The notes under the pieces: generated by a model | What the model saw: the letters and a program-made list of their open reading frames with translations, nothing else | The model's database searches: none | What the model was told of the DNA's origin: nothing | NCBI RefSeq assembly: GCF_007120195.1 | Contig: NZ_SKOG01000279.1 | Span: 1-37,973 of the forward strand | From: Aquisalimonas sp. | GTDB taxonomy: Bacteria > Pseudomonadota > Gammaproteobacteria > Nitrococcales > Aquisalimonadaceae | Direction: 5' to 3' | Length of the DNA stretch: 37,973 bases | Shown here: positions 9,746 through 11,908 of the stretch, in pieces | How the letters are laid out: every line of letters starts with the position of its first letter | Numbering within the stretch: position 1 is the stretch's first letter | Program-made: the position numbers and the translations under genes

Positions 9746-10606
9746 CTACAGCCGATCCACCGGGATCTTGAAGTAGACGGTGCCGTTATCCTCCGGCGGC
9801 GGCATCTCACCGGCGCGGATGTTCACCTGAATGGACGGCAGGATCAGCCGCGGCATGTCCAGGGTGGCATCGCGCTTCTCACGCATCTCCACGAACTCGT
9901 CCTCGCTCACGCCTTCGCGCACATGGATGTTGTGCCGCTTTTGCTCCCCGACCGAGGTCTCGTACTCGTGGGACCGACGGTCGCCGGGGTAGTCGTGGCA
10001 CATGAACATGCGCGTCTCCTCCGGAAACGCCAGCAGCTTCTGGATCGAGCGATAGAGGGTGGAGGCATCCCCGCCGGGGAAGTCGCAGCGCGCGGTGCCC
10101 ACATCCGGCATGAACAGCGTATCGCCCACGAACAGAGCGTCACCGAGCTGCCAGGACATGTCCGCCGGCGTGTGACCGGGCGTATAGATCACCCGCCCTT
10201 CCAGCTCGCCGATCCGGATGGTCTCGCCGTCGGCGAACAGGTGGTTGAACTGGCTGCCGTCCGGCAGGAATTCCTTCTCGAGGTTGAAGACCTCGCGGAA
10301 GATCTTCTGCACCTGGGGAATCTGGTCACCGATGGCGATCCTGCCGCCCACCTGGTCACGCACAAAGGGTGCGGCGGAGAGGTGGTCGGCGTGGGCATGG
10401 GTCTCCAGGATCCAGTCCACGGTGAGATCGTGCTCGCGGACATAGTCCACCAGCCGCTGCGCCCCCTTCGTGGAGGTGCGCCCGGACCTGGGATCGTAAT
10501 CCAGCACGGCATCGATCACCGCGGCATTGCCGCCTTCACGGTCGTAGACCACATAGCTGAAGGTCTCCGTGTCGGTGTCGAGAAAGGCCTTTATGTTGGC
10601 GTTCAT
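9746..10606 (-). CDS. blh: Persulfide dioxygenase-like metallo-beta-lactamase-fold hydrolase (Blh)
   Basis: A 286-residue metallo-beta-lactamase-fold enzyme. Metal ligands are visible in order: H70, H72, D74 and H75 in THAHADHL, H145 in GHTP, D162 in GDTLF and H204 in CHDY. This pattern and length match the Blh/ETHE1 sulfur dioxygenases, which oxidise glutathione persulfide to sulfite with Fe(II) and O2. No rhodanese domain is fused. Start is at 10606, with AGGAG at 7 nt; an ATG at 10612 is too close to that site. It is divergent from bigR, the known partner of blh in plant-associated bacteria, which supports the assignment over a plain glyoxalase II. Confidence 0.88.
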   Translation of the reverse strand: MNANIKAFLDTDTETFSYVVYDREGGNAAVIDAVLDYDPRSGRTSTKGAQRLVDYVREHDLTVDWILETHAHADHLSAAPFVRDQVGGRIAIGDQIPQVQKIFREVFNLEKEFLPDGSQFNHLFADGETIRIGELEGRVIYTPGHTPADMSWQLGDALFVGDTLFMPDVGTARCDFPGGDASTLYRSIQKLLAFPEETRMFMCHDYPGDRRSHEYETSVGEQKRHNIHVREGVSEDEFVEMREKRDATLDMPRLILPSIQVNIRAGEMPPPEDNGTVYFKIPVDRL

Positions 10607-10634
10607 GGGCATACTCCTCTGTGCTGTCGCGTAC

Positions 10635-10669
10635 AGTTTAGTTGCAAACATAACAATTTGCAATATAAT
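10635..10669. promoter_or_regulatory. Divergent promoters with overlapping BigR-type operator
   Basis: A perfect inverted repeat TTGCAAA (10642-10648), 8 bases, TTTGCAA (10657-10663) lies between blh and bigR. For bigR, TTGCAA at 10642 is a plausible -35 with a perfect TATAAT at 10664-10669, spacing 16. For blh on the minus strand, TTGCAA at 10663-10658 is followed after 17 bases by TAAACT (10640-10635). Each operator arm is thus the -35 of one promoter, so repressor binding would shut both. A further direct repeat CAAACATAAC occurs at 10645-10654 and 10675-10684, the second copy over the bigR leader. Confidence 0.65.
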
Positions 10670-10696
10670 GTGTCCAAACATAACGAGGAGGATGAC

Positions 10697-11011
10697 ATGC
10701 CGGACACGAAGGCACTGGACCTTGAACAGATGCGCCGCAGCGCCGACGAAGCCACGTCGGTGCTCCACGTGCTGGCGCACAAGGACCGCCTGCTGCTTCT
10801 TTGCCAGCTCAGCCAGGGCGAGATGTCGGTGGGCGAGCTCGAGGAATGTCTTGAGATCCGCCAGCCGGGCCTGTCCCAGCATCTCGGGGTGCTGCGGCGG
10901 GAAGGTCTGGTTCAGACCCGGCGGGAGGGCAAGTACATCCATTACCGGGTCGCTGATGAACGGGTGCTGGCGGTGCTGCAGACACTCTACGAACAGTACT
11001 GTGACACCTGA
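10697..11011 (+). CDS. bigR: ArsR-family persulfide-sensing repressor BigR/SqrR type
   Basis: A 104-residue ArsR/SmtB winged-helix repressor. The recognition helix is around residues 53-70 (EIRQPGLSQHLGVLRREG) and the wing around TRREGKYIHYRV. Cysteines are at 36, 51 and 102. The 36-102 spacing of 66 residues equals the spacing of the persulfide-sensing pairs in BigR (42/108) and SqrR (41/107), so a tetrasulfide or disulfide switch is expected. Metal-binding CxC motifs of arsenic or zinc sensors are absent. GAGGAGGATGAC precedes ATG 10697. It heads the pmpAB-sulP operon and faces blh, as in known bigR loci. Confidence 0.9.
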   Translation: MPDTKALDLEQMRRSADEATSVLHVLAHKDRLLLLCQLSQGEMSVGELEECLEIRQPGLSQHLGVLRREGLVQTRREGKYIHYRVADERVLAVLQTLYEQYCDT

Positions 11012-11032: not shown

Positions 11033-11470
11033 ATGATGACCATAGACTGGGCTTCCTTTACCCCCTGGTCGGCGCTCGCCGGAGGCGTGCTCATTGGCTT
11101 GGCCGCCGCGGTGTTCGTGCTGGTCAACGGCCGCATTGCCGGGATATCCGGCATCCTCGGCGGGCTGCTGCGACCGCAGTCCGGAGACCTTTCCTGGCGG
11201 GTGGCCTTCGTGGCGGGCATGATCGCAGCACCCCTGCTGTGGGCGGCGATGACCACCTTGCCCGAAATTCTGATCGAGGCGAGCGTGCCCATGCTGGTGG
11301 CCGCGGGGCTACTGGTGGGAGTGAGCACCCGCTATGCGGGCGGGTGCACCAGTGGCCACGGCGTCTGCGGCATCTCCCGGCTGTCGCCGCGCTCGCTGCT
11401 GGCCACGGTAAGCTTCATGGCCACCGGCTTCATCACCGTCTATATCGTGCGTCACGCCATCGGAGGCTGA
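11033..11470 (+). CDS. pmpA: YeeE/YedE-family membrane protein, first half (PmpA-like)
   Basis: A 145-residue inner-membrane protein with about four hydrophobic helices and the family signature [19 protein letters not shown] near residues 105-125. The two cysteines in that motif correspond to those that handle thiosulfate in YeeE/TsuA-type transporters. Split-gene members (PmpA with PmpB) pair to make one full unit. It starts 21 bp after bigR and ends 3 bp before the second half. In bigR operons these proteins are thought to move sulfur compounds such as thiosulfate or sulfite. The direction is not resolved from sequence. ATG 11036 is an alternative start. Confidence 0.85.
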
Positions 11471-11473
11471 ACC

Positions 11474-11908
11474 ATGAACAGGCCCAATCTATTCGCATTT
11501 ATCGTCGGCTTGGTCTTCGGCCTCGGGTTGCTGATCTCCGGTATGGCGAATCCGGACAAGGTGCTCTCCTTCCTGGATCTCGCCGGCGCCTGGGATCCCT
11601 CCCTGGCCCTGGTCATGGGCGGTGCCATCGCGGTCGGCAGCATCGCCTTCACCATCGCCGGCAAGCGTGAGCGCTCACTGATTGCAGAGCCCATGCGCAT
11701 CCCCACCCGCCGGGACCTGGACAAGCCCCTGGTGCTGGGCAGCCTCGGCTTCGGCGTGGGCTGGGGGCTGGCGGGCTTCTGCCCCGGTCCGGCGCTGGTG
11801 GCGCTGGGAGCCGGTGAAACGGGCGCGGTGGTCTTTGTGGTTTCCATGCTGGTGGGCATGGCGATCTACGAGCTCATCGAACAGAGCCGCAAAACCGCGG
11901 AGGCATAG
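11474..11908 (+). CDS. pmpB: YeeE/YedE-family membrane protein, second half (PmpB-like)
   Basis: A 144-residue partner of the preceding protein, with about four membrane helices. It has the second-half signature GWGLAGFCPGPALVALG around residues 93-110, containing the conserved Cys, and GLLISGMANPDKVLSFLD near the N-terminus, which is also typical of the family. The 3-bp gap to pmpA indicates translational coupling. Together they make a pseudo-symmetric sulfur-compound transporter in the inner membrane under BigR control. Confidence 0.85.
   Translation: MNRPNLFAFIVGLVFGLGLLISGMANPDKVLSFLDLAGAWDPSLALVMGGAIAVGSIAFTIAGKRERSLIAEPMRIPTRRDLDKPLVLGSLGFGVGWGLAGFCPGPALVALGAGETGAVVFVVSMLVGMAIYELIEQSRKTAEA

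Follow-up and report, generated by a model that had tools for sequence, protein, structure and literature searches.

The question raised by this locus is whether the inverted repeat TTGCAAA-N8-TTTGCAA, located between a blh-like and a bigR-like gene, is the operator of a BigR-type repressor, a pair of -35 promoter elements, or both at once. The window (the whole stretch of DNA that was analyzed, 37,973 nucleotides) is contig 22 of a 4.05-Mb genome. Here, a 90-bp gap separates the blh-like gene on the minus strand (9746-10606) from the bigR-like gene on the plus strand (10697-11011). A first-pass annotation had proposed that the repeat serves as the operator of a BigR-like dimer and that each of its arms is the -35 element of an outward-facing promoter.

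The blh-like gene encodes a stand-alone, MBL-fold persulfide dioxygenase-like protein of 286 aa, as judged from profile searches and its structural relatives. A Blh protein in the strict sense combines a sulfurtransferase and an ETHE1-type part; the Blh model NF040641 was matched here with 381 bits (cut-off 625), and the match is confined to the dioxygenase part (positions 141-423). The nearest solved relatives of the protein are 9g8t, 4ysk, and 4efz, with ETHE1 lower in the list. The bigR-like gene encodes an ArsR-family repressor of 104 aa with an ArsR-type winged-helix domain (PF01022 HTH_5, 46.4 bits vs. a cut-off of 22) and two sensor cysteines, Cys36 and Cys102. Since its score with the NCBI BigR equivalog model NF040642 is 108.3 bits at a cut-off of 155, the protein is assigned to a BigR-like subfamily and not to BigR in the sense of NCBIfam. 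Among its best solved relatives are the "biofilm growth-associated repressor" 3pqj and the ArsR protein of 6o8k-6o8o, which we take to be Xylella BigR and Rhodobacter SqrR, respectively. Downstream in the direction of bigR, profile matches identify two half transporters on the plus strand, one of the YeeE/YedE type (Sulf_transp, 11033-11470) and one of the DUF6691 / YeeE-YedE type (11474-11908).

Both sensor cysteines are conserved in all 91 aligned proteins, the window's included, although the conservation of the cysteines and of the recognition helix is partly a product of selection, as the loci were fetched in part with peptide words holding both. Residue 58 in the predicted recognition helix is Gly in the window's BigR only (1/91), with Thr in 78, Ser in 7, and other residues in 5 of the relatives. 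Ser at this position was observed in several relatives of the same order, and His62 of the window's protein is present in 7 of the 91 aligned proteins. Among five genomes of the genus (G000-G004), a BigR match (E 1e-20) was found in one, the window's own. A contig labelled Alcanivorax (L002) carries all four genes at 81-90% identity. The gene set is thus patchily present and has possibly moved from one lineage to another.

Direct reading and a repeat search locate the two arms of the palindrome, TTGCAAA at 10642-10648 and TTTGCAA at 10657-10663, on either side of an 8-nt gap. The other elements named by the first-pass annotation are likewise in place: TATAAT (10664-10669) starts after a 16-nt spacer from the left TTGCAA; AGTTTA (10635-10640), which is TAAACT on the minus strand, lies 17 nt beyond the right TTGCAA on that strand; and the direct repeat CAAACATAAC occurs at 10645-10654 and 10675-10684, with a spacing of 30 bp. 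To estimate how often such features arise by chance, the gap (10607-10696) was shuffled with its dinucleotides preserved. In 4.4% of the shuffles, 7-nt arms formed a perfect inverted repeat around a loop of 3-12 nt (8.6% for loops of 0-20), so that the palindrome, taken by itself, is no more than a mild departure from expectation. Two copies of TTGCAA were rarer (0.15%), as was an exact 10-nt direct repeat (0.24%). As TTGCAA is self-complementary, any two copies of it form an inverted repeat. A terminator-like hairpin with a 6-bp stem was also noted on the plus strand at 10619-10636; three such sites were counted in 3 kb, where 1.0 was expected.

The gap was then compared with those of relatives. 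A contig scan detected BigR relatives at 113 loci; the best 80 were retained, and searches up to the order level (54 genomes, 11 with a match including the window's own) added 10 loci. Within the family, a match was found in 8 of 14 genomes, again counting the window's own. Because the genus and family searches yielded few relatives, most of the comparison draws on other families. A blh lying divergently beside bigR was found in 71 loci, three of which are the window itself. Removal of two window copies (L082 and L093) and then of five near-duplicates among the remaining 69 (L051, L059, L063, L066, and L081) left 64 gaps, i.e., the window and 63 others. A palindromic motif search was trained on 62 divergent gaps (mostly Burkholderiales, by record titles), with both the window and its closest relative L002 left out. 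The promoter count described below covers 61 gaps, leaving out L019, L088, and L089, whose best site scores below 12 bits; the column and half-site counts cover 60, leaving out the window in addition. L088 and L089, which belong to the same family (genus g3), have divergent gaps scoring 7.7 and 1.9 bits, respectively, and each keeps one good half-site (ATATAATAT and TTATAATAT), while L086 of the same genus reaches 16.5 bits. The operator of L088 and L089 has perhaps been rebuilt.

The motif that emerged from the 62 gaps is an AT-rich palindrome of 24 bp, AtAtTATATttataaATATAaTaT, with 21.4 bits. The width of 24 was a choice; the likelihood kept rising to 36, the widest tried. When symmetry was not forced, the search also returned a self-complementary motif (correlation of 0.95 with its own reverse complement, best of nine shifts). 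Column symmetry is 0.62 at the motif centre compared with 0.34 at the centre of the TTGCAAA palindrome, a difference to which the procedure itself contributes, since the alignment of the regions used a motif constrained to be palindromic. More weight was given to the unforced search and to held-out loci. The held-out loci are 22 that lack a divergent blh; in 19 of these, the highest-scoring position of the entire locus is upstream of bigR. A score of 10 bits is reached in 18 and missed in four. In plasmid regions (eight, chosen among 60 listed matches), the motif is found at the expected promoter in five, with 17-24 bits. Two of these five are annotated blh-bigR operons, that of Sinorhizobium medicae with 20.1 bits at 21 bp before blh and that of Shinella with 23.6 bits. 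No site of at least 10 bits was found in three of the eight plasmid loci, namely those of Rhizobium leguminosarum (a stretch without the blh promoter), Paracoccus, and Azospirillum. The AT-rich motif is missing upstream of the BigR-like genes of L034, L074, and L075, and the fetched stretches of L034 and L075 also lack a blh match; these genes possibly belong to another regulon. The recurrent motif is a candidate for BigR's own site.

The comparison bears directly on the idea that BigR recognizes TTGCAAA-N8-TTTGCAA itself, which would make the repeat a new class of operator doubling as both -35 elements. A motif search in related bigR-blh gaps, suggested as a check on that idea, did not return the repeat: the palindrome is present in one of the 64 gaps, the window's, and in none of the 63 others, even when gaps of 6-10 are allowed, and AtAtTATATttataaATATAaTaT recurs in its stead. 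The closest sequence, TTGCAAA-N8-TTGTCAA of L002, has 2 mismatches in 14 positions; L085 also has two, at a gap of 6, and the rest have 3-7. Moreover, at the palindrome's centre (10652.5) the score of the family motif is -28 bits, none of nine motif widths places one of its top three matches there, and a comparable inverted repeat arises in 4-9% of shuffles. There is something to be said for the idea, since the 7-bp arms are perfect, the exact pattern occurs once in the 4.05-Mb genome, both arms stand at -35 distance, and the deduced SqrR site ATTC-N8-GAAT (cited in PMC9774250) likewise has a gap of eight. As Gly58 is private to the window's BigR, a changed preference is conceivable. On balance, we consider recognition of the TTGCAA repeat by BigR very unlikely. 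It is even harder to believe that some other regulator, for example, of the LacI or TetR type, uses the palindrome on top of BigR control: the perfect palindrome offers a site for it, but its single occurrence in the genome and its absence from the 63 other gaps make this extremely improbable.

When the 24-bp motif was run over all 37,973 bases of the window, the three best matches all fell in the gap. The first, O1 (ACATAACAATTTGCAATATAATGT, 10648-10671), scores 9.7 bits, a value reached by 0.2% of Markov copies of the gap; O2 (10663-10686) overlaps it 15 bp away with 9.3 bits, and O3 (10633-10656) is a weak third register 15 bp the other way with 3.9 bits. The next match elsewhere scores -4.5. 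At all nine widths (18-36), the three best matches are centred at 10644.5, 10659.5, and 10674.5, and only their order changes. O2 ranks first at widths 18-22, where O1 is second or third (9.0 vs. 1.9 bits at width 18), and O1 ranks first at widths 24-36 with a growing margin (16.2 vs. 7.1 bits at width 36, which includes the flanking -35 places). Because the ranking depends on the width, either O1 or O2 may be the preferred register, and our confidence is lowered accordingly.

The two halves of O1 differ markedly. Its right half, ATATAATGT (10663-10671), agrees with the family's commonest base throughout the nine outer positions. The left half is degenerate, with a C where all 60 other gaps have T and with two further rare bases (2/60 and 1/60), and these changes coincide with the usual place of the blh -10 element. 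O1 is therefore among the weakest sites, and only three of the 63 other gaps score lower. Three hand-written forms of the consensus were run over the genome. O1 is the only match to ACATTATATN6ATATAATGT with at most three mismatches and to AYATWATATN6ATATWATRT with at most two; the W of the latter lets in the A that the window has at position 5. For the strict form, ATATTATAT-N6-ATATAATAT (ATATTATATN6ATATAATAT), the genome contains no match at up to three mismatches. The window's operator is thus probably a worn, degenerate AT-rich BigR box and not one of the TTGCAA type. The first-pass annotation had spoken of a variant operator that differs from the AT-rich boxes; what survives of this is that one half of the usual site has decayed. 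An AT-rich site is already what that annotation knew as a BigR box, so no new operator class is needed.

The decay could also mean that the left half-site is too far gone for good BigR control, in which case the switch is eroding and the remaining symmetry is due to chance. The score of 9.7 bits, compared with 19-30 in L002, L083, L084, L087, and L090, and the loss of a T that 60 of 60 others keep are in line with such erosion. It is made rather improbable by the intact genes and sensor cysteines, by the presence of the second site O2, and by the right half of O1, which keeps the family's commonest bases as described above.

With the operator as a frame of reference, the promoters can be placed. 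They were scored with -35 and -10 frequencies of E. coli, which are not fitted to this clade. The predicted bigR promoter consists of the left palindrome arm as -35 (TTGCAA, 10642-10647) and of TATAAT (10664-10669) as -10 inside the right half of O1, both on the plus strand and found by the promoter scan and the operator alignment; it agrees with the consensus at 10 of 12 positions. Its -35 stands at a conserved place, as 50 of 61 gaps have their best bigR -35 starting 7 to 5 bases ahead of the operator, and the claim that the left arm is the bigR -35 is thereby supported. In 49 of the 61 gaps, the best blh -35 occupies the mirror-image position. The operator-aligned consensus reads tTCAaTcTATTgACa-operator-tgtcAA, and this mirror placement means that, typically, each -35 lies outside one end of the operator and each -10 inside the far half.

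For blh, two promoters on the minus strand come into question. The inner one, picked out by promoter scoring, probably uses the right palindrome arm as -35 (TTGCAA, 10658-10663), in the centre of O1, and TAAACT (10635-10640) as -10; it agrees with the consensus at 8 of 12 positions, below the scan's threshold of 9. The outer one combines TGGACA (10671-10676), near the family's usual place, with TATGTT (10647-10652), and it is this pair, TGGACA-18-TATGTT, that the sigma-70 scan listed in place of the inner promoter. Transcription of blh from the outer promoter, which would leave the right TTGCAA without a promoter function and is compatible with the proposed operator, is a real if somewhat unlikely possibility. 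In its favor, the outer promoter outscores the inner one in 56 of 61 gaps and is the sole minus-strand entry of the window's scan. In the window, however, the inner promoter scores higher (9.8 vs. 8.3 bits, poor either way), as it does in L002 (TTGACA-17-TATATT, 14.7 vs. 6.1 bits), and the usual outer blh -10, which falls in the left half-site, reads as a degenerate ATAACA. A blh -35 in the operator centre is best in five of the 61 gaps (the window, L002, L084, L021, and L026). As its score is higher by a small margin, the inner promoter is tentatively rated likelier. The first-pass assignment of the right arm to the blh -35 is thus probably right for the window, as a minority layout.

The 15-bp spacing shared by O1, O2, and O3 recurs beyond the window. 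Of 60 gaps, 65% have an extra half-site with a positive score exactly 15 bp before the operator. Neighboring offsets and flank shuffles were used to examine whether this ladder is an artefact of AT-richness: at neighboring, non-overlapping offsets in the same orientation, at most 5% of the 60 gaps score above zero, and in the opposite orientation the half-site, being nearly self-complementary, also appears at -16 (15%) and -13 (32%). Of 18 held-out loci, 8 have a positive score for the half-site at -15, compared with a mean of 0.56 and a maximum of 5 for shuffled flanks. By eye, additional AT-rich half-sites can be made out in L068 and L010 outside the 24-bp site, at a pitch of about 15 bp. 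The ladder is consistent with overlapping registers or with two dimers. Two shifted bands have been reported for a related protein, SoxR of Hyphomicrobium, at another promoter (PMC10451225).

The copies of CAAACATAAC, 30 bp apart, had been suggested as an extra site; this is supported in form, since the second copy falls in part within O2, which overlaps O1. A more far-reaching reading, which we consider speculative and unlikely, is that bigR gaps in general carry a half-site ladder of 15 bp, roughly one and a half turns of the helix, on which a dimer can sit in alternative, overlapping registers, each masking other opposed promoter elements, and that the ladder has shifted in the window. An otherwise invariant half-site base would then have changed together with the Gly58 helix, the blh promoter would have shifted to the middle of the operator, and CAAACATAAC would represent the altered half-site in two copies.

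The reading that we prefer, at a probability of about 0.72, is a self-regulated persulfide/sulfide switch in which BigR would act on O1 and/or O2, with the TTGCAA pair as opposed -35 elements and not as the recognition element. In this genome, reduced BigR dimers would bind the AT-rich O1 and/or the overlapping, nearly equal O2. O1 would span the bigR -10, the spacer, and the probable blh -35, and by covering both promoters, one bound dimer could shut off both transcripts. Persulfide would link Cys36 to Cys102, upon which BigR would leave the DNA and the dioxygenase as well as the bigR-transporter genes would be made. Loss of BigR-DNA binding after treatment with H2S or sulfur has been described (PMC5823870). 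The two TTGCAA hexamers would serve as -35 elements of overlapping, opposed promoters, and their palindromic look would follow from the self-complementarity of TTGCAA. Given their overlap, the two promoters should not be occupied by RNA polymerase at the same time; at five tested E. coli promoters, basal competition was found to be negligible (PMC12825309). Building on the observed gene families, sequence elements, and sensor cysteines, the recurrence of the O1-type motif, and the place of the bigR -35, we infer for this genome the binding, repression, and induction by BigR, the start sites, the preferred register, and the blh promoter used.

The same 2026 paper (PMC12825309) states that the control of overlapping divergent promoters has hardly been studied. 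The layout described here bears on that control and is common to many gaps: opposed -10 elements in the two operator halves, -35 elements flanking them, and a recurrent half-site 15 bp away. It is testable in many easily grown bacteria. For the window, the place to footprint moves from the TTGCAA palindrome to 10648-10686. Among the titles listed from the open-licence literature, none was on the divergent bigR-blh layout.

In the founding BigR work on Xylella fastidiosa and Agrobacterium, the AT-rich BigR box reportedly overlaps the promoter. The bigR-blh operons of these bacteria have the same gene content as found here, i.e., a two-cysteine ArsR-type repressor, a Blh-type dioxygenase, and transporter genes (PMC5823870 and PMC4018554). 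Unlike those operons, the window has a divergent blh with the dioxygenase part only, and its predicted site spans two opposed promoters. By sequence, the window's BigR belongs to the protein subfamily of Rhodobacter capsulatus SqrR and Escherichia coli YgaV. On its own promoter, YgaV covers the sites recognized by RNA polymerase (PMC9774250). The deduced SqrR site, ATTC-N8-GAAT, differs from the motif found here. In E. coli, the acrR/acrA region with its autorepressor AcrR resembles the window in having mutually exclusive, opposed promoters beside an autorepressor gene (PMC12825309). The bidirectional E. coli promoters of Warman et al. share a -10 element and have start sites 7-25 bp apart (PMC10268837). 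The window's predicted promoters each have their own -10, and their start sites, reckoned from the predicted -10 elements, would be about 33 or 48 bp apart. In the divergent tetR/tetA region of Tn10, palindromic operators overlap the divergent promoters of the repressor and the effector gene. That layout is like the window's, although the repressor family and the signal are unrelated. Our verdict is that the locus probably represents a sulfide-detoxification switch of a known kind, whose local layout is unusual.
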